Shown: positions 1 to 11,094 of the stretch, in pieces
Layout of the letters: every line of letters starts with the position of its first letter
Position numbering within the stretch: the stretch's first letter is position 1
Source: Nitrospinota bacterium
Lineage (GTDB): Bacteria; JADFOP01
Length of the DNA: 11,094 nucleotides
Assembly: GCA_022562795.1 (NCBI GenBank)
Contig: JADFOP010000055.1
Span: forward strand, 1-11,094
Direction of reading: 5' to 3'
Made by a program: the position numbers and the translations under genes
The notes under the pieces: model-generated
Told to the model about the DNA's origin: nothing
The model's input: the letters and a program-made list of their open reading frames with translations, nothing else
The model's database searches: none

Positions 1-31
1 GTTAGACGGGCGGGTCGCTGCCCAAAAGGCC

Positions 32-58
32 GGACACCCACGAGGGGTGTCCCTACAC
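32..58 (-). repeat. REP-like hairpin, copy 1 (CACCC variant)
   Basis: The arms GGACACCC (32-39) and GGGTGTCC (45-52) form a perfect 8-bp hairpin with a 5-nt loop. CTAC (53-56), the complement of GTAG, abuts it directly, so the unit reads on the minus strand. It has the same outer bases (GGACA) and foot as the other family copies, but different inner stem bases. It ends just upstream of the first gene's ribosome-binding site. Confidence 0.7.
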
Positions 59-77
59 AGGATTAGGCCAAAAAAGG

Positions 78-83
78 AGGAGG
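78..83 (+). promoter_or_regulatory. Ribosome-binding site deciding the beta-helix gene start
   Basis: AGGAGG lies 8 nt before ATG 92, in a purine-only run that begins at 71. It favours 92 over the upstream GTG at 47, which overlaps a repeat hairpin. Confidence 0.8.
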
Positions 84-91
84 AAGAGAGG

Positions 92-1819
92 ATGAAGGGA
101 ATGATGGGAACAGGAAGAATCGCTCGTGGAAGCCTCGTAGCGCTGTCGGCGCTGCTGTCGCTCGCTCTTGCCGCCGGGCCGGCCTTTGGGGCTACGATAG
201 TCGTACCCAACGATGAGCCCACCATCCAGGACGCGGTGGACGCGGCGAAGAAAGGCGATACTATTGTGGTCAAGAAAGGCGGCGGGCTCGGCCCCAACGG
301 GGAGTACCACGAGTCCGTGGATATAGATACTGATGACATCACCATCAAGTGCGAGAGGGGCGCGGTCATCGACGGTGCCATCCCGAGCGACGCCCCGGGC
401 GGCGCCCGGGTCCTGACCACCGACGGGATCGACGTCGATGCGGACGATGTCACGATTGACGGCTGCACGGTGCAGCACTTCTTCTTCGCAGACGGCATCG
501 ATGTGTTTGGGGACGGCGCCACCATCAAGAACAACACCCTGCTTAACAACCTCGGTGACGGCCTTGAACTGGACGGTGACAATTTCCTGGTAAAGAACAA
601 CACGGCCATCAACAATGGCTTCACCTTGGAGATTCCGGTTAATGGCGTAATCAATATCCCCCTATTTGGCGACGGCTTCAATATCGGCAGCAGCGACGGG
701 ACCATTGTGGGCAACACCGCCATCGCAAATACAATTGATGGGTTCAACATCGGGTCCAGTGACAGTAAGAATATCAAAATACTGCGCAACAGGGCGTTCC
801 GAAACAATAGCGATGGTTTCGATATCGAAGGAGATGACCACTCCATTATCGGCAACAGGGCCGAGGTCAATGAAGGTGACGGCTTCGACCTGGATGACAT
901 GGACAGGGCTATTGTGGCGAATAATCTCGCCCGGGGCAATGACGAAGACGGCTTTGAATTTGATGATACCGATGATTCCACCATCCGAAGGAATGTCGCG
1001 ATCGAAAATGGTGATGACGGCTTCGATCACGACAACTGCAGCAACGACGCCAACAAGTTTGAAAGGAATCTCGCCATCGGGAACGAAAGCGAGGGTTTCG
1101 TTAGCTGCGGCGACCGCAACGAGTTTGTGAACAACCGGGCGATTGAAAACCAGAGCGAAGGGTTCGACCTCGACTGCGATGATGATGGTCTTGCCCCTAC
1201 TGGTGAATGCACCGGCCCGATTATAGGCAACCGCTCCATCCGGAACGCCGACGATGAGGGCTTCCGCCTCCAGGACTTCGAGAAGACCACCATCTCAGGC
1301 AACAAGGCCATAGGAAACAATGAAGAAGGCTTCGAAATCAATAACGTCGATAAAACTCTCTTTGAGAACAACCTCGCCAGAGACAACGGCCAGGAAGGCT
1401 TCGGGGTCTTTAGTGGCAGCGACTCCAACACCTTCAAAAACAACCGGAGCATAGGGAACGCCGAGGACGGCTTTAAGATAAACGACTCCGACACGAATAC
1501 GTTTATTAAGAACACCATCACGAAAAACTTCGGGGATGGGTTCGACATCGACGACACAGACTCCGACGACAACATCATCGACGGCAACACCGTGAGAAAC
1601 AACCGCGGGACGGGTATCGAGAACAACGGCGGCGCCGGCGGTGATACGATTATCAAGAACAACACGATGAAGGGCAACAGGACCGACCTGGCCGGCAAGG
1701 GAGACGACGATACCGATTCTGATTGCAGCGGCTTCGGCGGCGGCGTGGATGACGGCTTCGGCAACACCTTCGTCACCGGCGGGTTCGACGTCTGCACCCC
1801 CGGCACGGGGGATGAGTAG
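92..1819 (+). CDS. Secreted Asp-rich right-handed parallel beta-helix protein (PbH1/NosD-like repeats)
   Basis: The protein has 575 residues. The start is ATG at 92 because AGGAGG (78-83) sits 8 nt upstream; an in-frame GTG at 47 would run through repeat copy 1 and is unlikely. A signal peptide covers about residues 1-33 (basic n-region, Leu/Ala-rich core, cleavage near AFGA). The opening block (TIVVPNDEPTIQDAV, then ITIKCERGAVIDG) is the usual first turn of right-handed beta-helix proteins. From about residue 155 to 510, turns of about 23 residues repeat the pattern GN-A--N---DGF-(I/L)-D, with some fourteen regularly spaced Gly-Phe/Leu positions. Eight Cys are present (C87, C125, C316, C339, C362, C373, C545, C568), so disulfides are possible after export. 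I see no C-terminal membrane anchor or sorting motif. The dense Asp suggests calcium binding (inference). The fold is well supported; the ligand, or any polysaccharide lyase activity, is unknown. An intrinsic terminator follows at 1912-1943. Confidence 0.88.
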   Translation: MKGMMGTGRIARGSLVALSALLSLALAAGPAFGATIVVPNDEPTIQDAVDAAKKGDTIVVKKGGGLGPNGEYHESVDIDTDDITIKCERGAVIDGAIPSDAPGGARVLTTDGIDVDADDVTIDGCTVQHFFFADGIDVFGDGATIKNNTLLNNLGDGLELDGDNFLVKNNTAINNGFTLEIPVNGVINIPLFGDGFNIGSSDGTIVGNTAIANTIDGFNIGSSDSKNIKILRNRAFRNNSDGFDIEGDDHSIIGNRAEVNEGDGFDLDDMDRAIVANNLARGNDEDGFEFDDTDDSTIRRNVAIENGDDGFDHDNCSNDANKFERNLAIGNESEGFVSCGDRNEFVNNRAIENQSEGFDLDCDDDGLAPTGECTGPIIGNRSIRNADDEGFRLQDFEKTTISGNKAIGNNEEGFEINNVDKTLFENNLARDNGQEGFGVFSGSDSNTFKNNRSIGNAEDGFKINDSDTNTFIKNTITKNFGDGFDIDDTDSDDNIIDGNTVRNNRGTGIENNGGAGGDTIIKNNTMKGNRTDLAGKGDDDTDSDCSGFGGGVDDGFGNTFVTGGFDVCTPGTGDE

Positions 1820-1829
1820 GATTATTTAG

Positions 1830-1844
1830 TCCGCCTGAGGCGGA
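1830..1844. repeat. Dispersed palindrome TCCGCCTNAGGCGGA, copy 1
   Basis: Two perfect 7-bp arms flank one variable central base (G here). It lies 10 nt after the beta-helix stop codon. Other copies are at 10161-10175, 10641-10655 and 10926-10940, with a truncated one at 2012-2023. Confidence 0.75.
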
Positions 1845-1861
1845 TTTATGGATGTTCGCTC

Positions 1862-1888
1862 GGACAGGGGTAAACCCTGTCTCTACAC
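1862..1888 (-). repeat. REP-like hairpin, copy 2
   Basis: The arm GGACAGGG (1862-1869) pairs with CCCTGTCT (1875-1882; outermost pair G-T) around loop GTAAA. The foot CTAC (1883-1886) abuts it, so the unit reads on the minus strand. Together with copy 3 it brackets the terminator at 1912-1943. Confidence 0.7.
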
Positions 1889-1911
1889 GGGCACAAGACT
1901 CGCCATTCAAG

Positions 1912-1943
1912 CAGGGCGCCCAAACTGGGCGCCCTGTTTTTTT
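1912..1943 (+). terminator. Intrinsic terminator of the beta-helix gene
   Basis: A perfect 10-bp GC-rich stem (CAGGGCGCCC, 1912-1921; GGGCGCCCTG, 1927-1936) with loop AAACT is followed by seven T (1937-1943). The T run is only on the plus-strand side, so it serves the upstream beta-helix gene and not the minus-strand gene that ends at 2049. Confidence 0.9.
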
Positions 1944-1944
1944 A

Positions 1945-1970
1945 TGTAGGGACAGCCTTTATGGCTGTCC
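1945..1970 (+). repeat. REP-like hairpin, copy 3
   Basis: GTAG (1946-1949) abuts a perfect hairpin with arms GGACAGCC (1950-1957) and GGCTGTCC (1963-1970) and loop TTTAT. This 27-bp unit (1945-1971) recurs exactly, in reverse orientation, at 9993-10019. Confidence 0.8.
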
Positions 1971-2048
1971 GGCCTTTAAGGGGTGCGACCCGCCCTTCCA
2001 ACCCACGGACATCCGCCTGAGGCCCTCCCTCAAATCACCGCCGCTCCG

Positions 2049-3908
2049 TCAGCCTCGACGGATTCCCTCGACAATCTCGGCCACCACCTCGTAGCGGCCG
2101 AAAGAGGGCATGAGGTAGGTGCCCTTGACCAGGGGCGCGGCCTCCTCGAGGAACTCCACGGCCAGCTCCACGCCAACCTGACGGGCCTTATCGCCGGCAT
2201 CCTGAAGCCGCTTGCGGACATCTTCGGGGATCTCTATCCCCGGGACCTCGTTGTGGAGGAAGGAGGCGTGGCGGAAGCTCATCAGCGGCAGGACTCCGAG
2301 CAGGACCGGGATTGTGAGGCCGAGCTCCTCGCACCGCTCGCGGAACCTCCGCAGGGTGGAGAGCTCGAAGAGGGGCTGGGTCATGGCGAGCTCCGCCCCG
2401 GCTTCAATTTTCCTCCGGTACCGGCCCATCTCGGCCTCCAGGTCCGGGTCGGCGGGGTTGACGGCGCAGATGACGAAGAAGCGCGCCGGCTCCCCGATCG
2501 CGTGGTCCGAGAGGTCCTTGCCCTCGTTGAGCTTATGAAGAATGTGGATGAGCCCCACGCTATCGACGTCGAAAACGGGTGTTGCGTCCTGACAGTCGCC
2601 GATGCGGGGGGGGTCGCCGGTGAGGGCCAGGATGTTCCGGATGCCGACGGCGTGCGCGCCCAGCAGGTCGCTCTGCAGGCCCATGAGGTTTCTATCCCGC
2701 GTGGTGAAGTGGATAATGGTCTCGATGCCCACCTCCCGCTGAATCAGGTAGGCCATGGCCAGACACCCCATCCGGACCCGCGCCATGGGGCTGTCGGCGA
2801 CGTTGATGAGGTCCGCCCCGGCGGCTTTCAGTATGGCCGCCCCTTCGATGTCTTTTCTGGGGTTCGTCCCCTTGGGTGGGTCGACCTCGACGCTCACCAC
2901 GAAGTGGTCCTGCTCCACGAGATGGGCCAGGTGGCTCTTCGCCTCGGCGGGCGGGGCGAATACCTCCTCTTGGCGGCCCACCTCTATCGTCTCCCGGTGG
3001 GCGGCGGCGACCGACTCCACGGGCGGGGCGAGCTCGACCAGGGCCTTCCCCATGGCGCGGACGTGGTCGGGGGTCGTCCCGCAGCATCCGCCGATAATCT
3101 GGGCGCCCGCCTCGGCGAAGGCCGCGGCATACTCAGCCACGTATTCCGGCGAAGAGAGATAGATGTAGCGGTCCTGGACGATCCGGGGCATGCCGGCGTT
3201 CGGGTGGACGCTGAGGGGCAGGTCGGTGAGCTCGCGCATCCTGGCGATGACGTCGAGCATGCCTTGGGGCCCCACGGAGCAGTTCGCCCCGATGACGGCC
3301 ACGTCCAGCGCCGAGAGACCCTCCACGACCTCCTCCACCGTGTGGCCGCGAGAGGTCTTGCCGTCTTCGTTGAAGGTCATCTGGGCGATAATGGGCAGGT
3401 CCGTCAGCTCCTGGATGGCGAGAACGGCCTCGGTCACCTCGTCTAAATCGTAGAAGGTCTCAACGGTGAAGCAGTCGACACCGCCTTCGAGAAGACCTTC
3501 GGCCACCTCGCGGAAGACTTCGCGGGCCTCCTCGCGGGTTATCTTGCCGACGGGCCTCAGGGGTTTCCCCAGGGGACCGACGGAGCCCGCGATGAAGACC
3601 GGCTCGCCCGAGATGTCCCTTGCGTACTTAGCCGTCTTGGCGCCCCACAGGGTGAACTCCCGGACCTTGTCTTCCATACCATAGGAGGCGAGACGGACCC
3701 GGTTGGCCCCGAAGGTATTGGTCTCGATGAGCTCGCTTCCGGCGCGGATGTAGTTAAGATGAACGTCTTGGACAAGCGAGGGGGTCGAACGGTTGAGCTC
3801 CTCGAAGCACCGCTCGAGCGACACCCCCTGAGCGTAGAGCATCGTCCCCATGGCGCCGTCGGAAAGCAGCAGTCCGCGTGAGAGGCGCTCTACAAAGGGA
3901 TGAGCCAT
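2049..3908 (-). CDS. yitJ: Bifunctional homocysteine S-methyltransferase / 5,10-methylenetetrahydrofolate reductase
   Basis: The 619-residue protein is close in length to Bacillus YitJ, the best-known member of this fusion. Residues about 1-295 form the homocysteine methyltransferase barrel: DGAMGTML near the start, GANCSVGP with C210, and GGCCGT with C275/C276. These three Cys are the family's zinc ligands, which activate homocysteine thiol. Residues about 330-615 form the MTHFR (MetF-like) barrel: VEVDPPKG with E341 in the catalytic Glu position, FTTRDRN, ALTGDPP (428-434) with D432, and QPLF. The expected role is cytoplasmic: reduce methylene-THF to methyl-THF using FAD and NAD(P)H, and methylate homocysteine to methionine. 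The natural methyl donor of this fusion is not certain, and no cobalamin-binding domain is present. ATG 3908 has GGAGA at 3916-3920, 7 nt upstream. It is monocistronic, and I see no terminator after its stop. Confidence 0.93.
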   Translation of the reverse strand: MAHPFVERLSRGLLLSDGAMGTMLYAQGVSLERCFEELNRSTPSLVQDVHLNYIRAGSELIETNTFGANRVRLASYGMEDKVREFTLWGAKTAKYARDISGEPVFIAGSVGPLGKPLRPVGKITREEAREVFREVAEGLLEGGVDCFTVETFYDLDEVTEAVLAIQELTDLPIIAQMTFNEDGKTSRGHTVEEVVEGLSALDVAVIGANCSVGPQGMLDVIARMRELTDLPLSVHPNAGMPRIVQDRYIYLSSPEYVAEYAAAFAEAGAQIIGGCCGTTPDHVRAMGKALVELAPPVESVAAAHRETIEVGRQEEVFAPPAEAKSHLAHLVEQDHFVVSVEVDPPKGTNPRKDIEGAAILKAAGADLINVADSPMARVRMGCLAMAYLIQREVGIETIIHFTTRDRNLMGLQSDLLGAHAVGIRNILALTGDPPRIGDCQDATPVFDVDSVGLIHILHKLNEGKDLSDHAIGEPARFFVICAVNPADPDLEAEMGRYRRKIEAGAELAMTQPLFELSTLRRFRERCEELGLTIPVLLGVLPLMSFRHASFLHNEVPGIEIPEDVRKRLQDAGDKARQVGVELAVEFLEEAAPLVKGTYLMPSFGRYEVVAEIVEGIRRG

Positions 3909-3949
3909 TTCGCTTTCTCCGCTTATGTCAAACCAGCTTTGGAGGCATC

Positions 3950-3978
3950 ACTATAGGCGAGTAGGCGGAATATGTAAA
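3950..3978 (-). promoter_or_regulatory. Sigma70-type promoter of the HMT-MTHFR gene
   Basis: Read on the minus strand, TTTACA (3973-3978) and TATAGT (3950-3955) are separated by exactly 17 nt, and each matches consensus at five of six positions. Transcription would start near 3943, giving a leader of about 35 nt, too short for a SAM or cobalamin riboswitch or a T-box. Confidence 0.7.
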
Positions 3979-4114
3979 GATAGCGCATCTAGCTCCGCCT
4001 CGATGGGCTGCCGACCGTCGAAACATCGCGCTCCAAAGAAAATAGGTGGAGATGGAACGCCCCCGGCCTAACGAGAATTCCGACCCCGGCACGGTAAGGC
4101 GGGCTCCCAAGAGG

Positions 4115-4143
4115 TTGACAGCCATGCCCATAGGTGGCATATA
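4115..4143 (+). promoter_or_regulatory. Probable promoter of tRNA-Val
   Basis: A perfect -35 TTGACA (4115-4120) lies 41 nt before the tRNA. The -10 is poorer: CATATA (4138-4143, 17-nt spacer) or TATAGG (4140-4145, 19-nt spacer). The inverted pair ATGCC (4124-4128) and GGCAT (4136-4140) sits in the spacer. Confidence 0.45.
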
Positions 4144-4160
4144 GGAAAATAACCGTAGGT

Positions 4161-4236
4161 GGGCGGATAGCTCAGTTGGGAGAGCGCCGGCCTTACAAGC
4201 CGGAGGTCGTAGGTTCAAATCCTGCTCCGCCTACCA
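4161..4236 (+). tRNA. tRNA-Val (anticodon UAC)
   Basis: A full cloverleaf can be drawn. The acceptor stem is 4161-4167 with 4226-4232 (first pair G-U). The D stem is 4170-4173 with 4182-4185. The anticodon stem is 4187-4191 with 4199-4203, and TAC at 4194-4196 sits in a 7-nt loop. The T stem is 4209-4213 with 4221-4225, with TTCAAAT as its loop. Discriminator A and an encoded CCA (4234-4236) follow. It has 76 nt and stands alone. Confidence 0.96.
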
Positions 4237-4266
4237 TATTATTCGATTGCTTAGCGGAACGGCTCG

Positions 4267-4291
4267 GGCCACACCCTTCTTGGGTGTGGCC
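4267..4291. other. Strong hairpin downstream of tRNA-Val
   Basis: Perfect 10-bp arms GGCCACACCC (4267-4276) and GGGTGTGGCC (4282-4291) have a 5-nt loop, 30 nt after the tRNA. No T run follows on either strand, so it is not a standard intrinsic terminator. It may help end the tRNA transcript or be a worn repeat. It lacks the GTAG foot of the REP-like family. Confidence 0.45.
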
Positions 4292-4380
4292 GCTTGGAGG
4301 CTTCGGACCAACACCATTGTAAACGGGCCTTGCAGCATAACGTTTTTAGAGTAAGTAACTTAGTACGGGGAGGCGTTAGC

Positions 4381-4779
4381 TCAACGGCTCTTGAGGAGTT
4401 TGAGGGAGACAGAATTGATGCAGTAACGCTGGTTCGTCGGCGGGGGACCGTCGTTGAAGATGTGTCCGAGGTGGGCATCGCACACACTGCAGAGCACCTC
4501 GACCCTTCGCATCAAGATGCTATGATCATCTTCGGTTCTGATGTTTTCCGGTGACATAGGAGCCCAGAAGCTCGGCCAACCGGTACCGGAATCAAATTTC
4601 GTCTCGGAGCTGAACAGTTCGTTGCCACAACAGGCGCATTGGTAGCTCCCTTCGTCCTTGCAATCGAAGTACTCCCCTGAGAAGGGTTTTTCCGTTCCTT
4701 TATTCCGACAGATCTCGAACTGCTCCGGCGTGAGAAGTTGTTTCCACTCCTCTTCTGACTTAACCACCTTGTTTTTCAT
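4381..4779 (-). CDS. msrB: Peptide-methionine (R)-S-oxide reductase MsrB
   Basis: The 132-residue length is typical of a single-domain MsrB. It reduces methionine-R-sulfoxide in oxidised proteins. The visible signature is complete: structural zinc pairs C48/C51 (QCACCG) and C97/C100 (LCSVC), the GTGWPSFW block (65-72), DAHLGHIF (101-108), and RYCINS with the catalytic Cys at 120. It has no signal peptide, so it should be cytoplasmic. ATG 4779 has AAGGGG (4789-4794) 9 nt upstream. It is divergent from proS and has no msrA partner nearby. Its codons are less GC-rich than those of proS or the HMT-MTHFR gene. Confidence 0.95.
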
Positions 4780-4824
4780 CCCTCAACACCCCTTCTCACT
4801 GAGCCATTAGGCACCGCCCCCCAA

Positions 4825-4833
4825 AGTATATCA
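4825..4833 (-). promoter_or_regulatory. Candidate extended -10 promoter of msrB, inside an inverted repeat
   Basis: On the minus strand, TGA followed by TATACT (TATACT at 4825-4830, TG at 4832-4833) gives the extended -10 pattern TGnTATAAT. No good -35 is visible. It is bracketed by the perfect 8-bp inverted repeat CTGAGCCA (4799-4806) and TGGCTCAG (4844-4851), possibly a regulator site. Confidence 0.4.
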
Positions 4834-5010
4834 AACCCTATAGTGGCTCAGATGCGGGACCATCTCCTATTTACTCACCTTTCTTTAATAATACCTCAAA
4901 TACGGTTGGTCTCGCCATCAATGGTGGCGCATGCGTCTCTTTCGAGTTCCGCCCGACTAAGGCCGGCAAGGATGCCTTCCTTTAGGGGGGACCGCCCAGG
5001 GCAGCCCCGG

Positions 5011-5039
5011 TTGCATTTATCCCACCCAGCCTGTAGAAT
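5011..5039 (+). promoter_or_regulatory. Promoter of proS (and the following cupredoxin gene)
   Basis: TTGCAT (5011-5016), a 17-nt spacer and TAGAAT (5034-5039) put the transcription start near 5046, about 38 nt before the proS ATG. The -10 is five of six; the -35 is weak. The tRNA-Asp promoter has the same -10 hexamer and spacer length. Confidence 0.5.
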
Positions 5040-5083
5040 CCCGTTGCCGAGAGACCCAAAGTAAGAGCCCGGACGAGGAACCC

Positions 5084-6514
5084 ATGGCCCGGCGAATCAC
5101 CCCTCGGAGCGAGGACTACAACCAGTGGTACGTTGACGTAGTCCTTCAGGCGAAGCTCGCCGACTACGCCCCCGTCAAGGGCTGCATGGTTATACGGCCA
5201 AACGGTTACGCGCTCTGGGAGAACATCCAGCAGGCCCTGGACGCGATGTTCAAGGCCACAGGTCACGTCAACGCCTACTTCCCCCTCCTCATCCCCGAGA
5301 GCTACCTGAAGAAGGAAGAGGAGCACATCGAGGGCTTCAAGCCCGAACTCGCCGTCGTCACCCACGGCGGGGGCAAAAAGCTCGAAGAGCCGCTCGTCAT
5401 CCGCCCAACGAGCGAGACCATCATCTGGCCGATGTTCAAGAAGTGGATTCAGAGCTATCGGGACCTCCCGCTCCTCATAAACCAGTGGGCGAACGTCGTC
5501 CGCTGGGAAATGCGCACCAGGCTTTTTCTTCGCACCCTTGAGTTCCTCTGGCAGGAGGGCCACACGGCACACGCGACCTTCGAGGAGGCCGAAGAGGAGG
5601 CGCTGACCATCCTAGAGCTTTACCGCAGCTTCGCCGAAGAGTGGATGGCGATGCCGGTTGTAACGGGCCTCAAGACCGAGCGCGAGCGCTTCGCCGGGGC
5701 GCTTAAGACCTACACCATCGAGGCCATGATGCAGGACCGCCGGGCCCTCCAGGCCGGCACCTCCCACAACCTGGGCCAGAACTTCGCCCGGGCCTTCGAC
5801 GTCACCTTCCAGAACGAAAGAGGCGACCTAGAGCACGTCTGGGCCACGAGCTGGGGGGTCTCGACCCGCCTCATCGGCGCCCTCGTGATGGTCCACTCCG
5901 ACGACCAGGGGCTCGTGCTGCCCCCGAAGCTCGCCCCCAATCAGGTCGTCGTCGTCCCCATCTTCAAGGGCGAGGCCGAACGGGCCCGTGTGCTGGAGGC
6001 GGCTGAGACGCTCCGGGCCGCCCTCGGAGGCGACGTCCGATGCCACGTGGACTCCCGCGAGGAGCACACGCCGGGATGGAAGTTCAACGAGTGGGAGCTC
6101 TTGGGCGTGCCCGTGCGGGTGGAGGTCGGCCCCCGCGACCTGGAGCGAAGAGAGGTCGTCCTGGCCCGGCGCGACACGGGGGAGAAGGCCTCTGTTCCTC
6201 AGGAAGGGGCGGCCCAGGCGATCCGGGACCTCTTGGAGGCCGTCCAGGCAAATCTTTTATCTAGCGCCCTGGCCTTTCGTGACCAGCACACGCACGTCCT
6301 CGATGACTTTGAGAAGCTCAAGGAGATAAACGAGGCCGGCGGCGGGTTCTTCAGCATCCACTGGTGCGGGGCCGAGCCGTGCGAGGATCGCCTCCAGGAA
6401 GAGACCAAGGTCACCATCCGGGCAATCCCGCTCGACGGCGAGGCCGAGGCCGGCCGCTGCATCCTCTGCGGCGGGGATAGCGAAAGACGGGTCGTCGCGG
6501 CGAGGGCGTATTGA
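5084..6514 (+). CDS. proS: Prolyl-tRNA synthetase, archaeal/eukaryote-type (ProRS type 3)
   Basis: The 476-residue class II synthetase charges tRNA-Pro in the cytoplasm. The N-terminal [12 protein letters not shown] and [10 protein letters not shown] blocks, class II motif 2 (RWEMRTR to [11 protein letters not shown], 140-163) and motif 3 ([12 protein letters not shown], 256-267, with R262) are clear. [14 protein letters not shown] (about 280-293) opens the anticodon-binding domain. The C-terminal zinc module has C428, C433, C459 and C462. The protein ends in Tyr476; a C-terminal tyrosine reaching the active site is characteristic of this type. The large editing insertion of the bacterial-type enzyme between motifs 2 and 3 is absent, as expected. 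ATG 5084 has GAGG at 5075-5078, 5 nt upstream. The coding is strongly GC-rich (46 of 60 bases at 6121-6180). Its stop overlaps the next gene's ribosome-binding site. Confidence 0.97.
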
Positions 6515-6522
6515 GGAGCCCA

Positions 6523-6957
6523 ATGGCACGGTTGAAAAGGTCAAGAATGCACCTCAACTATTTCCTTGTGATTGTCGGCCTTTTTAGTCTTTGTTTTGCT
6601 GGAAGTGCAAACGGTCGGCAGAAGGTTTTCCATGCGACCACCTCCACCGACGGTGTCCAAAGGATAGAAGTTCTTGGGGGAGATTATTTCTTCGACCCGG
6701 ATTACATCATCGTTAAAGCGAATGTGCCGGTGGAAATCACGATCAAAAAAGATTCTATAATTGTTCCGCATAACATAACAATAGAGGCCCCGGATGCTGG
6801 AATTGAGGTTTCTGAATCCCTGAGCAGAACTCCAAAAGTTATACGGTTCACTCCTACGAAGCCTGGAAAATACGCCTTTTATTGCACTAAGAAACTGTTC
6901 TTTTCCAAAAGCCACAGGAAAAAAGGGATGGAAGGAGTGCTCGAAGTCCGTCCGTGA
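6523..6957 (+). CDS. Exported small cupredoxin-domain protein
   Basis: The protein has 144 residues, with a signal peptide to about residue 31 (basic start, hydrophobic 11-27, cleavage near SANG). The rest is one cupredoxin domain: FDPDYIIVKANVPVEITI, then VPHNITIE, then PGKYAFYC. Plausible type 1 copper ligands are H83, C121, H131 and M136 (HRKKGMEG). Cys to second His is 10 residues, longer than the usual CxxxxH or so, because of a basic/aromatic insert (TKKLFFSKS). A role in periplasmic electron transfer or copper handling is inferred. It is not a lipoprotein, since the residue before C24 is Leu. The start chosen is ATG 6523, with AGGAG (6514-6518) overlapping the proS stop; ATG 6547 with AAGG (6537-6540) is an alternative. 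Base composition drops sharply (21 G+C of 60 at 6721-6780) against proS, which suggests a different origin. It converges on the aldo/keto reductase gene. Confidence 0.82.
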   Translation: MARLKRSRMHLNYFLVIVGLFSLCFAGSANGRQKVFHATTSTDGVQRIEVLGGDYFFDPDYIIVKANVPVEITIKKDSIIVPHNITIEAPDAGIEVSESLSRTPKVIRFTPTKPGKYAFYCTKKLFFSKSHRKKGMEGVLEVRP

Positions 6958-7004
6958 GCTGCAATGATTCAGATTGCCAGCTACAAATAGGAGCCTCTCC
7001 TCCC

Positions 7005-8015
7005 CTACCGATCCTGGCTGACTTTATCGAGGAACCAGTGGGGGTAGAGCGTGGGCGGCTGGCTTAGGGCATCGAGGCGGGAGACCTCCTCCGGCGTCAT
7101 CTCCCACTCGGTCGCCTTGAGGTTGTCGGCTAGCTGCTCCGGCGTCCTGGCGCCGATGATGACCGATGTGACACCGGGCCTGCGAAGCAGGTAGTTGAGC
7201 GCGGCCTGGGCGACGCTGGCCTTGCGGCCGGCGGCTACGCGCTCCAGCTCCTCGACGATCGCTAACCCCTTCTCCTCATCTATCGGGATGAACTCCCCCT
7301 CAGGGGTGCTTCGGCGGGCGCCTTCGGGCCTGGCCTGTCCGCCTCGGTATTTGCCCGTCAGAAACCCTCCCGCGAGGGGGCTCCAGGGCAGGATGCCGAG
7401 ACCCTGGTCGAGGCAGAGCGGGACGAGCTCTAGCTCCAGCTCGCGGGCGACCAGCGAATAGTAGGCCTGGAGGGTCGCGAACCGCTCGAGGCCGAGATTG
7501 TCAGAGATCGCCAGGGCCTTCATAAGCTGCCAGCCGGTGAAGTTCGAGCAGCCGAGGTAGCGGACCTTGCCTTGACGGACGAGGTCGTCGAGGGCCCGCA
7601 GGGTCTCTTCCAGCGGGGTTTCGTGGTCGAAGCTGTGGACCTGATAGAGGTCGATGTAGTCGGTCCCGAGCCTTCTCAAGCTCGCGTTGCAGGACTCCAT
7701 GATGTGGTGGCGGGAGAGGCCGACCTCGTTCGGCCCCGGTCCCATTCGGCCCCGGACTTTCGTCGCCAGTATCACCTCGCCGCGTCGGTGGCCGAGCGCC
7801 TTTCCCAACATCTCTTCGGCAAGCCCCTCGGAGTAGACATTCGCGGTGTCGAAAAAGTTGACCCCCGCTTCCAGCGCCATGCCCACGAGCACGTCCGCTT
7901 CCTCTTGAGCGAGGTCGCCGATCGTTTTCCAGTACCCTCGGCCGCCAAAGGTCATATTGCCGAAGCAAAGCTCGGAGACCTTGAGGCCGGTCTTTCCGAG
8001 AGACCGCATGCGCAT
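7005..8015 (-). CDS. Aldo/keto reductase family oxidoreductase
   Basis: The 336-residue NADPH-dependent TIM-barrel oxidoreductase has the full AKR tetrad: D56 (FFDTANVYS), Y61, K86 (ATKVRG) and H127 (YQVHSFD). Further family blocks are KVRYLGCSNFTGWQ (150-163), the cofactor-loop region WSPLAGGFLTGKY, and the C-terminal TSVIIGARTPEQLADNL. ATG 8015 is chosen because AGGAGG (8024-8029 on the complement) lies 8 nt upstream; the reading frame stays open to 8135, but that extension is low-complexity and has no ribosome-binding site. Length and order of motifs fit the large group of uncharacterised bacterial AKRs acting on aldehydes or sugars; the substrate cannot be told. It ends 48 nt from the convergent cupredoxin gene, with no clear terminator between them. 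Confidence 0.93.
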   Translation of the reverse strand: MRMRSLGKTGLKVSELCFGNMTFGGRGYWKTIGDLAQEEADVLVGMALEAGVNFFDTANVYSEGLAEEMLGKALGHRRGEVILATKVRGRMGPGPNEVGLSRHHIMESCNASLRRLGTDYIDLYQVHSFDHETPLEETLRALDDLVRQGKVRYLGCSNFTGWQLMKALAISDNLGLERFATLQAYYSLVARELELELVPLCLDQGLGILPWSPLAGGFLTGKYRGGQARPEGARRSTPEGEFIPIDEEKGLAIVEELERVAAGRKASVAQAALNYLLRRPGVTSVIIGARTPEQLADNLKATEWEMTPEEVSRLDALSQPPTLYPHWFLDKVSQDR

Positions 8016-8209
8016 AGGCCTGACCTCCTGGTTTAATTGAAACCTGTTTGAATCGCCGATTCCCCCACTGCCTTCTCCAGGGCCGTGGCTTCTTCTGAGC
8101 CCCTCGCCCCCCGAGGCGCTGGGGCCACTATACACAAGGGAGCGCCTGGGGGTAACCCGAAGATACGCCCACCCAGATGCCTTCCTGCACAGGCGAGCGG
8201 ATTTTCCCC

Positions 8210-8238
8210 TTGCCCGTCGCGGCTACGTGTCGTAGAAT
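8210..8238 (+). promoter_or_regulatory. Promoter of tRNA-Asp
   Basis: TTGCCC (8210-8215), a 17-nt spacer and TAGAAT (8233-8238) predict a start near 8245, about 44 nt before the tRNA. The rest of 8016-8288 shows no gene. Confidence 0.5.
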
Positions 8239-8288
8239 CTCGTCTGGAGGCTCTAGCCTCTTTGCCATTGCGAAACTCGCATACGGGC

Positions 8289-8367
8289 GGGGCTGTAGTT
8301 CAGCATGGTTTAGAACGCCGGCCTGTCAAGCCGGAGGTCGCGGGTTCAAATCCCGTCAGCCCCGCCA
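8289..8367 (+). tRNA. tRNA-Asp (anticodon GUC)
   Basis: Acceptor GGGGCTG (8289-8295) pairs with CAGCCCC (8357-8363). The D stem is 8298-8301 with 8313-8316 around an 11-nt loop. The anticodon stem is 8318-8322 with 8330-8334, and GTC is at 8325-8327. The T stem is 8340-8344 with 8352-8356, with TTCAAAT as its loop. Discriminator G and an encoded CCA (8365-8367) follow. Confidence 0.96.
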
Positions 8368-8383
8368 ATATAATTAATAAGTT

Positions 8384-8414
8384 AAGGGCTCCATGATTAG
8401 GAGCCCTTGCTTTT
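8384..8414 (+). terminator. Intrinsic terminator of tRNA-Asp
   Basis: A perfect 9-bp stem AAGGGCTCC (8384-8392) and GGAGCCCTT (8400-8408) has a 7-nt loop and is followed by GCTTTT. It lies 17 nt after the tRNA. It also argues that the coding frame open from 8407 does not start there. Confidence 0.75.
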
Positions 8415-8637
8415 CGGGACAAAATTTCCCTCCATTCATTGCTCGTTAGACCTTTTGAACCGCCAGGGACAACTTCATTCCCAAATCAGAATCGAACGCC
8501 GCCATAAACACGGATGTTTCTTACCAACCTGGCAGGTGGTATGTTCATATAGCCACTCCCTTCCCGTTGGATTACCATCAACGAGCGGTTTTTGGCTGAG
8601 ACTGCTATTAGGAAGTAAAAAAGGAGGTTTTTTGGCT
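8415..8637. other. Leader region of the CaCA gene
   Basis: This holds an open frame in phase with the CaCA gene but no family-like sequence; its translation is not membrane-like. A bulged inverted repeat, TACCAACCT (8522-8530) and AGGTGGTA (8534-8541), is the only structure noted. No convincing promoter was found. Confidence 0.4.
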
Positions 8638-9744
8638 TTGAGGGGTCGTGCCGGGCAGTTGATGGGGATTTTGGTCATCCTAATCCCTTTGGGCTTATGT
8701 TGGTTAGCATTCTCCGGACGCCTACAGACCGAAGGGGCTCCACGGCTGAGCGCTGGGGTGCTTGTAGGCTCAATTCCATTGATCCTGTTGGGTTGTGAGT
8801 TCTTTACCAACGCAGTCGAGCACGTAGGGAGGATATTCAAGCTATCCCATCATGCCACCGGAGGCGTATTGGCAGCGGTTGGGACTGCTCTTCCTGAGAG
8901 CTCCATCCCCGTAATAGCCGTCATTTTCGGCCCCAAGGGGCACGGGGAGGCAGTGGGCGTGGGTGCTATTTTGGGCGCCCCCTTTATGCTGGCCACATTA
9001 GCTTTGGCTATATTAGGAATTACGGTAATTGTAGAGAGATACCGGGGCAGGCGACAAAACCTGGCATTGTCCATAGACACGAAAGTGCTTCGCTCCGAGC
9101 TTGGAGTTTTCCTCGCGTGTTTCGTTGGGGTTTTGGTAGTTTCACTGATAAACCTCCCATTGCTGAAGTACGTAGGCGCGGCAGTTCTCGTCTGTCTCTA
9201 TGCCTGGTACGTAAAATATTCAATAAGCCTAAAAGCCCGAAAGAGCGAAGTCTACACGAAGGTGCTTTATATGGAGCGTTACGCGGGGATGCCTATGGAG
9301 GTAAAGACGGTAGCGGTGCAACTCGTGGCTGGATTGGCATTCATCTTAGCGGGAGCAACTCTCTTCGTTTCATCCGTCATTTCTTTAGCGCTCTACATGA
9401 AAGTGCCCGCGCTGGTCCTCTCTCTTATCTTGGCCCCTTTGGCGACGGAGCTGCCGGAGAAATACAATTCCGTTACGTGGATTTTGCGGGGCCAAGACAC
9501 TCTTGCTGTAAGCAACATAACGGGCGCCATGATATTCCAATCAATGATTCCCGTCGCTTTCGGACTTATCTTCACCAAATGGAGTCTCGGCACGATAGAG
9601 CTCATCAACATCATCTTAGCACTGGGGGCCGCCGGCCTCGTCTACTTCTCCCTGTTCCGTTCGGGCTCCCTCAAGGCCACGGCCTTGCTCGCGGGCGGGC
9701 TTATTTACGTGGTTTACCTGGCCGGTGTTATCTTTTTCCGATGA
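8638..9744 (+). CDS. Sodium/calcium exchanger-family (CaCA) integral membrane protein
   Basis: The protein has about 368 residues and roughly ten hydrophobic segments. The two CaCA alpha-repeats are visible. The first has N58 and E61 (FFTNAVEHVG), then GTALPE (82-87) and a helix ending in GEAVGVGAILGAPF. The second has LAPLATELPE (265-274), then VSNITGAMIFQ (291-301). LPE in both is the ion-binding core of the family. The usual GSNxFN that follows each repeat is replaced here, so the transported ion is uncertain; cation/Na+ or H+ exchange is inferred from family. The frame is open from 8407, but AGGAGG at 8622-8627 points to TTG 8638 (10 nt) or TTG 8632 (4 nt); ATG 8662 is also possible but has only a weak site. 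A charged linker at about 131-155 and 195-220 separates the halves. It is less GC-rich than proS. No partner genes adjoin. Confidence 0.85.
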   Translation: MRGRAGQLMGILVILIPLGLCWLAFSGRLQTEGAPRLSAGVLVGSIPLILLGCEFFTNAVEHVGRIFKLSHHATGGVLAAVGTALPESSIPVIAVIFGPKGHGEAVGVGAILGAPFMLATLALAILGITVIVERYRGRRQNLALSIDTKVLRSELGVFLACFVGVLVVSLINLPLLKYVGAAVLVCLYAWYVKYSISLKARKSEVYTKVLYMERYAGMPMEVKTVAVQLVAGLAFILAGATLFVSSVISLALYMKVPALVLSLILAPLATELPEKYNSVTWILRGQDTLAVSNITGAMIFQSMIPVAFGLIFTKWSLGTIELINIILALGAAGLVYFSLFRSGSLKATALLAGGLIYVVYLAGVIFFR

Positions 9745-9750
9745 AAGAGA

Positions 9751-9779
9751 TGAACGAGCGGACATTTTTCGTTCAATTT
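9751..9779 (+). terminator. Possible weak terminator after the CaCA gene
   Basis: A 7-bp stem TGAACGA and TCGTTCA with an 11-nt loop begins 6 nt after the stop codon and is followed by ATTTT. The stem is short and only part GC, so it is a weak candidate. Confidence 0.3.
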
Positions 9780-9801
9780 TCGATTGCCCCCCCCTCGTAT
9801 T

Positions 9802-9831
9802 CGGAAAATCGCGGAAAATCGCGGAAAATCG
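9802..9831. repeat. Tandem repeat, three copies of CGGAAAATCG
   Basis: Three exact 10-bp copies lie head to tail (9802-9811, 9812-9821, 9822-9831), after a run of eight C (9787-9794). The unit length is close to one helical turn. Confidence 0.85.
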
Positions 9832-9900
9832 GCCCGTCGGGAAGCTTGAACGGTCAATGGGGCAAACTTCTCTTTTTGTGAAAAACGTGGGTGTACGATC

Positions 9901-9925
9901 TGCATAGACAGGGTTTACCCTGTCC
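9901..9925 (+). repeat. REP-like hairpin, copy 4 (degenerate foot)
   Basis: The arms GACAGGG (9907-9913) and CCCTGTC (9918-9924) flank loop TTTA. The foot reads GCAT instead of GTAG and the outer stem pair is lost, so this is a worn copy. Confidence 0.6.
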
Positions 9926-9960
9926 GTGGGCCGGGAGAGTGAACCGTGTATGCGGAGGGG
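9918..9960 (+). repeat. 43-bp direct repeat, left copy
   Basis: Identical over 43 bases to 10090-10132, 172 bp downstream. It starts inside the right arm of REP-like copy 4 and runs into unique sequence after GGAGGGG. Confidence 0.85.
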
Positions 9961-9993
9961 TTCATCCTTGGCGTGGGGGCCTTGCTTGTTCGC

Positions 9994-10019
9994 GGACAGC
10001 CATAAAGGCTGTCCCTACA
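9994..10019 (-). repeat. REP-like hairpin, copy 5
   Basis: The arms GGACAGCC (9994-10001) and GGCTGTCC (10007-10014) with loop ATAAA are followed by the foot CTAC (10015-10018). It is the exact reverse complement of copy 3 at 1945-1971, about 8 kb away. Confidence 0.8.
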
Positions 10020-10053
10020 TAACCAGGTTTCGATGGTTTGGGGACGAATCTCG

Positions 10054-10097
10054 TGTAGGGACAGGGCCGACCAAAGGTCGCTTGCGACTCCCTGTCC
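10054..10097 (+). repeat. REP-like hairpin, copy 6 (with 23-nt folded insert)
   Basis: GTAG (10055-10058) abuts arms GGACAGGG (10059-10066) and CCCTGTCC (10090-10097). The apical region (10067-10089) folds again as CGACC, AAA, GGTCG. 43 of 44 bases match copy 8. Confidence 0.8.
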
Positions 10098-10132
10098 GTG
10101 GGCCGGGAGAGTGAACCGTGTATGCGGAGGGG
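10090..10132 (+). repeat. 43-bp direct repeat, right copy
   Basis: Second exact copy of 9918-9960. Here it follows REP-like copy 6 and runs directly into the right half of another REP-like unit. Confidence 0.85.
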
Positions 10133-10146
10133 GTTTACCCCTGTCC
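10131..10146 (+). repeat. REP-like hairpin, copy 7 (right half only)
   Basis: Sixteen bases identical to the right part of copy 10 (10884-10899) are fused to the end of the 43-bp repeat. The GTAG foot and outer left arm are missing. Confidence 0.55.
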
Positions 10147-10160
10147 ACATCCCGGGTAGG

Positions 10161-10175
10161 TCCGCCTCAGGCGGA
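10161..10175. repeat. Dispersed palindrome TCCGCCTNAGGCGGA, copy 2
   Basis: Central base C. It is followed at 10177-10184 by a second CTCAGGCG half, so a partial tandem copy is present. Confidence 0.75.
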
Positions 10176-10394
10176 CCTCAGGCGGGGTCCCTGTCCACAC
10201 CCCGACGGGAGGCCGTAACAATAGTCCTCGATTTCAGTAACGATTTGAAAAAAATCGGCCCTCAGCCTGTTGATTGGCTGGAAGAGATTCAATCGTGTAG
10301 TCCAACCTATTGATGAATGGTGGGTCACCAAAACGAAGGGGCTTGACTCGGTCAACTTGCTTGGAGATGTAGGTAGGACAAGAAAACTTGCCCC

Positions 10395-10423
10395 TTGACT
10401 TCTTGCCCCATTGGGGATACATT
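10395..10423 (+). promoter_or_regulatory. Promoter of the ribbon-helix-helix gene with operator-like palindrome
   Basis: TTGACT (10395-10400), a 17-nt spacer and TACATT (10418-10423) place the start about 7 nt on, at the ATG (10430). The spacer contains the perfect hyphenated palindrome CCCCA, T, TGGGG (10406-10416), suited to binding by a dimeric repressor. Confidence 0.5.
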
Positions 10424-10429
10424 ATAGGT

Positions 10430-10630
10430 ATGGAAATCATTCGTCGAAAGCTAGGGAAGCGTCGGCACTCCAAGGAACTCCGGGCGAGGCTACGCCCCGA
10501 ACAAGACGATCTAATTCGAGAAGCGGCGGGCATAGCTGGCATAACTCTTTCGGATTGGATGAGGGAGCGTCTTACCAAGGCGGCCAGAAGGGAAATAGCC
10601 GAAGCCAGGAGGCTGAGTGGCAAGAGCTAG
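10430..10630 (+). CDS. Small ribbon-helix-helix DNA-binding protein (antitoxin-like)
   Basis: The 66-residue basic protein has a short strand about 15-23 (KELRARLRP), helix 1 about 24-36 (EQDDLIREAAGIA) and helix 2 from about 40 (LSDWMRERLTKAARREI). That order, with a polar strand for the DNA groove and the SxWMRExL-AAR helix, matches ribbon-helix-helix (Arc/MetJ-CopG) proteins, including DUF1778-type antitoxins and MobC-like relaxosome proteins. It would bind DNA as a dimer. ATG 10430 is chosen because the promoter ends there; the frame extends to TTG 10388, but that would run through the promoter. No ribosome-binding site is at normal spacing, so the mRNA is probably leaderless. No toxin or mobilisation gene follows: the next 464 bases are repeats. 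Function as an orphan regulator or antitoxin remnant is inference. Confidence 0.65.
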   Translation: MEIIRRKLGKRRHSKELRARLRPEQDDLIREAAGIAGITLSDWMRERLTKAARREIAEARRLSGKS

Positions 10631-10640
10631 GCGGGCCAAC

Positions 10641-10655
10641 TCCGCCTGAGGCGGA
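10641..10655. repeat. Dispersed palindrome TCCGCCTNAGGCGGA, copy 3
   Basis: Central base G, 10 nt after the ribbon-helix-helix stop codon. Copy 1 sits at the same distance from its gene's stop. Confidence 0.75.
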
Positions 10656-10700
10656 CTTGCGACCCAGCCAAGGCTGCCTGCAGCACCCCGACACAACCAG

Positions 10701-10744
10701 TGTAGGGACAGGGTCGACCAAAGGTCGCTTGCGACTCCCTGTCC
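10701..10744 (+). repeat. REP-like hairpin, copy 8 (with 23-nt folded insert)
   Basis: GTAG (10702-10705) abuts arms GGACAGGG (10706-10713) and CCCTGTCC (10737-10744). It differs from copy 6 at a single base (T10714 for C10067). Confidence 0.8.
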
Positions 10745-10757
10745 GCAAAGAAAACCC

Positions 10758-10782
10758 GGACAGCCTAAAGGCTGTCCCTACA
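10758..10782 (-). repeat. REP-like hairpin, copy 9
   Basis: The arms GGACAGCC (10758-10765) and GGCTGTCC (10770-10777) with loop TAAA are followed by foot CTAC (10778-10781). It pairs with copy 8 in opposite orientation across a 13-nt linker. Confidence 0.8.
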
Positions 10783-10840
10783 TTTTTAAATATCAAAAAA
10801 CAGGCGGGCCTGTCGTCACGCACTTCCCGTACTTCCTCTT

Positions 10841-10865
10841 CTTCCCGAATGGGGAGCGTTTTTTT
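10841..10865 (+). terminator. Terminator-like hairpin
   Basis: CTTCCC (10841-10846) and GGGGAG (10851-10856), with loop GAAT and one G-T pair, are followed by CG and seven T. It could end the ribbon-helix-helix transcript, about 210 nt after that gene's stop. Confidence 0.45.
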
Positions 10866-10873
10866 GCTATTTT

Positions 10874-10899
10874 TGTAGGGACAGGGTTTACCCCTGTCC
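10874..10899 (+). repeat. REP-like hairpin, copy 10
   Basis: GTAG (10875-10878) abuts arms GGACAGGG (10879-10886) and CCCTGTCC (10892-10899) with a 5-nt loop. Confidence 0.8.
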
Positions 10900-10925
10900 G
10901 CATAAAACCGGGCAGGTTAGGATCG

Positions 10926-10940
10926 TCCGCCTAAGGCGGA
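10926..10940. repeat. Dispersed palindrome TCCGCCTNAGGCGGA, copy 4
   Basis: Central base A. An outer G and C (10925, 10941) extend the pairing to 8 bp. It lies 26 nt after REP-like copy 10. Confidence 0.75.
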
Positions 10941-11094
10941 CCCCGACACCACCTGCCGAGGCTTCTCCTTCATAAAAAAGAAACTCCATCCATGGACCGT
11001 CTTAGAGGGCATATTTCAACAGTTATTGCCCCTGGAGGCAGAGGGGCGTGAGGGGCAACTACATCGTGTTATATAAACTGGATTCTCCTTAAAT

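Follow-up and report, generated by a model that had tools for sequence, protein, structure and literature searches.

The window analysed here, 11,094 nucleotides of a Nitrospinota bacterium (contig JADFOP010000055.1, positions 1 to 11,094), carries a family of short hairpins with GTAG at the foot, which an earlier note on these letters had likened to repetitive extragenic palindromic (REP) elements (Table 1). All eight copies listed there as intact are present, and GTAG (CTAC on the other strand) touches the stem in 8/8. Their perfect arms span 8–9 bp, a little longer than the 7–8 bp first described, and the starts of four copies are corrected by +1, having been placed one base early. The outer GGACA/TGTCC, held to be invariant, is not: in copy 1862 the outermost bases do not pair (GTAG-AGACAGGG...CCCTGTCC). 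Two further copies are damaged as described, one worn with its foot lost and one truncated with its left arm lost, and a probable degenerate copy at 1830–1858 was missing from the list. At 43 nt, copies 10055 and 10702 are longer: in both, an 8-bp outer stem encloses a long inner segment, CGACCAAAGGTCGCTTGCGAC, with further inverted repeats. The spacers separating these two from their inverted partners (36 bp and 13 bp, respectively) each recur at three other loci. Eight GTAG-abutting hairpins with an 8-bp Watson–Crick stem lie in the window, seven of them belonging to this family (family I); among 60 dinucleotide shuffles of the window, 59 contained none and one contained a single example. 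Between copies 1862 and 1946, at about 1914–1943, sits a hairpin that resembles an intrinsic terminator and has a T run.

Across the whole genome (2.15 Mb, 84 contigs), the pattern GTAGGGACAGN{0,25}CTGTCC finds 75 copies of the form GTAGGGACAG...CTGTCC on about 25 contigs, against 0 for a reversed-pattern control, bearing out the predicted enrichment of GTAG hairpins. Allowing footless copies (GGACAGN{0,25}CTGTCC) gives 80 sites, so that 75/80 perfect hairpins (~94%) have GTAG on one side. Beyond these pattern counts, we read 64.6 kb of stretches picked around hits; because these were chosen by pattern, foot frequency is taken from the genome-wide counts. The stretches hold 101 family I units and 41 units of a second GTAG family (family II). 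Family I arms fall into two types, y (GGACAGGG) and z (GGACAGCC, GGACACCC or GGACGCCC), whose variable letters covary on both sides of the stem (GGG/CCC, GCC/GGC and CCC/GGG). Neighbouring units are inverted in 50 cases and direct in 4. Within inverted neighbours no more than 80 bp apart, y (GGG-type arm) pairs with z (GCC/CCC-type arm) in 47/48, whereas about half would be expected if equally common types paired at random; this is the alternation of bacterial interspersed mosaic elements (BIMEs), in which the hairpins had been proposed to pair. A T immediately precedes GTAG in 98/100 units and a G immediately follows the hairpin in 99/101. Family I has the features by which GTAG REPs and their BIME or REPIN arrangements are recognized: GT[AG]G adjoining the hairpin at its 5′ foot, many dispersed copies (intergenic position being judged in the window and at the transposase loci described below) and alternating, inverted neighbours. 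Contigs C2, C4, C28, C62, C64 and C77 start or end in or near REP clusters; the assembly therefore probably breaks at these repeats, and real copy numbers may be higher.

Table 1 Hairpins of the window, transposase genes and associated features (window positions unless a locus is named)
Feature	Position	Strand	Sequence or remark
z-type REP	32..56	-	GTAGGGACACCCCTCGTGGGTGTCC
Probable degenerate z-type REP, left arm = palindrome TCCGCCTGAGGCGGA	1830..1858, boundaries approximate	+	TAG/TCCGCCTGAGGCGGA/TTTATGGATGTTC; from comparison of its sequence with composites
y-type REP, outermost pair mismatched	1862..1886	-	GTAGAGACAGGGTTTACCCCTGTCC
z-type REP	1946..1970	+	GTAGGGACAGCCTTTATGGCTGTCC
Worn y-type REP, GTAG foot lost	9906..9924	+	GCATAGACAGGGTTTACCCTGTCC; copy 9901 of the earlier note
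z-type REP	9994..10018	-	GTAGGGACAGCCTTTATGGCTGTCC
Long y-type REP, inner module CGACCAAAGGTCGCTTGCGAC	10055..10097	+	inverted partner 9994-10018
Truncated y-type REP, left arm gone	10131..10146	+	GGGTTTACCCCTGTCC
Long y-type REP	10702..10744	+	
z-type REP, RAYT-A-linked 24-nt form (z20)	10758..10781	-	GTAGGGACAGCCTTTAGGCTGTCC; inverted partner 10702-10744
y-type REP	10875..10899	+	GTAGGGACAGGGTTTACCCCTGTCC
Inner module CGACCAAAGGTCGCTTGCGAC	10055-10097, 10702-10744; L002 18-61		also in many family II units
15-bp palindrome TCCGCCTNAGGCGGA	1830, 10161, 10641, 10926		
RAYT-A	contig C36, L001 1423-1905	+	family I copies on both sides
RAYT-C	contig C23, L003 1420-1902	-	flanked by family I
RAYT-B	L002 410-874	+	between family II hairpins 369-394 and 881-906
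Stop TAG from the GTAG foot of an adjoining REP	L001 1902; L003 1423(-); L035 1947; L145		L035 and L145 are other RAYTs

The earlier note had anticipated a Y1 transposase flanked by these hairpins, and a PF01797 (Y1_Tnp) profile search of the genome finds three intact REP-associated tyrosine transposase (RAYT) genes, designated RAYT-A, -B and -C. Each is flanked by its own REP family, the arrangement called a REPtron: family I for RAYT-A and RAYT-C, which share 64% identity, and family II for RAYT-B. All three pass the NCBI model REP_Tyr_transpos (NF047646; cut-off 80 bits), with RAYT-A at 123 and RAYT-C at 105 bits. HUH motifs are present as DHLH in RAYT-A and RAYT-B and DHIH in RAYT-C; the catalytic tyrosine lies in YIVHNP, YIHGNP and YIVHNQ, respectively, matching the Y...NP of class 2 RAYTs except for the Y...NQ of RAYT-C. 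RAYT-A has DHLH, WQ, YIVHNP and 160 aa, compared with DH[LF]H, WQ, YI[VI]ANP and about 151 aa in subclass 2.5 (Quentin 2018, PMC6006769). Of the solved structures it matches one only, E. coli TnpAREP (4er8, E 9e-8), and it retains, as WQGRFHEHILR, the WQ..RF.EH..R region that makes the GTAG contact in E. coli (PMC6006769). A RAYT-A scan over named genomes returned two relatives, both distant. The RAYT-A reading frame ends AAA GTG TAG, and the last four letters, GTAG, also serve as foot to the z20 hairpin on the 3′ side; RAYT-C ends CTG TAG and likewise takes its stop from the GTAG of its 3′ hairpin. Such a REP-made stop codon recurs in other RAYTs. We considered it as a potential novelty and rejected it: TAG-supplying REPs and REPs that touch RAYT 3′ ends are already described (PMC3733652, PMC2817692). 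NF047646 also detects two RAYT remnants, G000:C3:1729-1887 (L165) and G000:C4:51669-51851 (L166), the latter exactly between two family II REPs.

Comparison with other genomes ties one form of the repeat to this lineage. The exact 24-nt forms found beside RAYT-A (y20 and z20) number 35 here and 0 in the sister genome (G001) and seven other genomes, several of which carry GTAGGGAC hairpins of their own. The sister genome has 32 GTAGGGAC hairpin matches, and a search of it for RAYTs found none, a result that is not firm because the assembly is 85% complete and in 780 contigs. A third genome of the same class (G002) yielded neither GTAGGGAC hairpins nor a RAYT. Identical copies, 35 in this genome against none in its sister, suggest a fairly recent expansion, and the simplest reading is that RAYT-A drove it after the two species separated. 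The proposal had been that this genome has a RAYT acting on the family, or once had one; the first half is supported here, and the second may describe the sister genome, with hairpins and no RAYT found.

We conclude that the window hairpins are very probably REP elements, non-autonomous substrates of RAYT (TnpAREP) Y1 transposases that are encoded at unlinked REPtrons on C36 and C23. RAYTs of E. coli, Stenotrophomonas and Marinomonas recognize single-stranded GTAG plus hairpin and cut at nearby CT or CA (PMC8266576). Most probably by such a route, a RAYT would recognize the foot and hairpin on single-stranded DNA, for example the lagging-strand template, cleave beside the hairpin with its catalytic tyrosine and move or copy inverted y/z pairs into intergenic DNA, where the inserted copies would afterwards decay in place. 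Three points weigh against this reading. Binding, cutting and mobilization by these particular RAYTs are steps that we infer from the flanking repeats, from the 35 exact RAYT-A-type copies absent from the sister genome and from the biochemistry of other RAYTs. RAYT-C, which carries YIVHNQ in place of the class 2 signature Y...NP, may be impaired. Finally, a separate REP subfamily for each of RAYT-A and RAYT-C, which we tried as a refinement, is only partly supported: y20 pairs with z20 in 16 pairs, yet mixed pairs are common.

Family I could instead be a fossil, RAYT-A and RAYT-C being domesticated or inactive and the hairpins kept or lost by host processes only, such as mRNA 3′-end protection, gyrase or nuclease binding, or recombination. 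Worn and truncated copies in the window (9901 and 10131), the RAYT remnants on C3 and C4 and the sister genome that retains REPs with no RAYT found all speak for such a history; RAYT-A is intact, however, and its 35 identical 24-nt copies have no counterpart in that sister genome, so that we regard a purely fossil family as rather unlikely. More distant is the notion that the hairpins serve the host as regulatory elements or terminators, GTAG being incidental. Copies do lie between genes, and a terminator-like hairpin stands between two of them, but no T run follows the REPs themselves, their foot is one-sided and nearly invariant, y and z alternate, and the same family flanks RAYT genes. These features already disfavour a host origin and leave it highly improbable. 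Just as improbable is a derivation from an ordinary IS200/IS605 insertion sequence, with the hairpins as its ends or as miniature inverted-repeat transposable elements. The three proteins do match transpos_IS200 weakly (28–36 bits), but under its cut-off of 55 and against 105–123 bits for REP_Tyr_transpos, and their genes are three divergent, intact sequences instead of many near-identical copies.

The hairpins and their transposases are largely ordinary: they add a good instance to a bacterial system already known, REP/RAYT, and form no new kind. As in the GTAG REPs and REPtrons described previously (Nunvar 2010, PMC2817692; Di Nocera 2013, PMC3733652; Quentin 2018, PMC6006769), GTAG forms the foot of a perfect hairpin, units stand in inverted pairs, RAYTs are flanked by their own REP family, two families with their own RAYTs share a genome, GTAG provides a TAG stop and REPs overlap RAYT 3′ ends. 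Those three studies already report REPs on either side of RAYTs, repeat-specific REPtrons, TAG stop codons provided by REPs, contact between REPs and the 3′ ends of RAYT genes, and REPs lying in frame within such genes. What differs here is the sequence of the stem, the lineage of the host, the long forms with their common inner module and the arms swapped for a foreign palindrome. The Y and Z REPs of E. coli BIMEs, with their TnpAREP (4er8; PMC8266576), likewise alternate as two arm types in inverted neighbours, and the transposase is related in sequence, including the retained WQ..RF.EH..R region; unlike the E. coli elements, which require a stem bulge, the stems here are perfect and so come closer to those of group 3 RAYTs, which in Stenotrophomonas are perfect palindromes with an 8-bp stem and a loop of 3 nt. 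The genome adds a clean case of two REP families with matching RAYTs in a lineage with few sequenced relatives, and it offers a natural comparison with a sister species that keeps related REPs, with no RAYT found and without the RAYT-A-type repeat.

Family II hairpins take the form GTAGTCGGGGTC...GACCCCGA, preceded by GG before GTAG in 41/41 units and mostly followed by C[AT]CC. One inner module, CGACCAAAGGTCGCTTGCGAC, occurs in the long y units of family I as well as in the long units of family II, although their outer stems differ. Some hairpins are hybrids that take one arm from each REP family (L002, about 980–1035).

Composite hairpins of another sort involve a footless 15-bp palindrome, TCCGCCTNAGGCGGA, which lacks GTAG and occurs at 71 sites in this genome and 46 in the sister genome. 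It is absent from 180/193 genomes searched, and 9–27 copies occur in six unrelated genomes (G117, G087, G178, G152, G149 and G057). In either REP family the palindrome can substitute for an arm or a loop. A repeat whose intact version lies at window 10745–10800 reappears on C12 and C62 with TCCGCCTCAGGCGGA for GGCTGTCC and with both flanks unchanged, converting GGACAGCCTAAA-GGCTGTCC-CTAC to GGACAGCCTAAA-TCCGCCTCAGGCGGA-CTAC within the same surrounding repeat. It directly abuts a REP 7-mer in 33/63 copies read, versus 27% for control positions obtained by shifting within those stretches. Other copies lie in frame within genes, encoding SASGG or SALGG. A before-and-after comparison at uvrD was rejected as an empty site for the palindrome: this genome's sequence matches 10/15 bases there, perhaps as a decayed copy, so uvrD provides no clean empty site. 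Pseudomonas composite terminal repeats, in which degenerate GTAG-1 units are joined to unrelated stem-loops (Di Nocera 2013, PMC3733652), similarly unite a REP part with a foreign palindrome; the foreign part here differs in being one fixed 15-bp palindrome, which is not confined to REPs and also occurs in unrelated genomes. Nothing on the 15-mer turned up in a literature search. Tentatively, and with considerable doubt, the palindrome might be a separate spreading palindrome, not a RAYT substrate of the known kind, that replaces short tracts and favours REP arms and loops; REPs would then serve foreign palindromes as landing or recombination sites. Because both modules and this palindrome are swapped into otherwise identical repeats, the composite hairpins allow one to ask how REP variants arise.

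Some placements of these repeats fall inside transposase genes. A RAYT-like N-terminal remnant on C9 (L207, G000:C9:1000-3300; MPNHFHG motif) carries TCCGCCTNAGGCGGA in frame about 20 codons past its HUH motif; the remnant has no Pfam match and no recognizable tyrosine half, its RAYT likeness being recognized by eye only. Just past the HUH motif of RAYT genes in other genomes, a single GTAG REP or a pair of them stands in frame (L145, L149, L153, L154, L155, L156, L160, L051 and L045). We rejected in-frame REPs as a novelty, such insertions being a known feature of subclass 2.4 (PMC6006769).

Longer repeats enclose or separate these hairpins. In the sister genome, several copies of TCCGCCTNAGGCGGA lie inside a further repeat, GAGTATCATATTTCGGTGAAA-palindrome-CC, at L187, L188, L197, L201 and L204. 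A repeat of ~75 bp, ACAGGCGGGCCTGTCGTCACGCACTTCCCGTACTTCC...CGAATGGGGAGCGATTTTTTT, lies between REPs at window 10782–10875 and on C1, C12, C16, C35, C36, C42, C56 and C62, and is the same module at all eleven sites.

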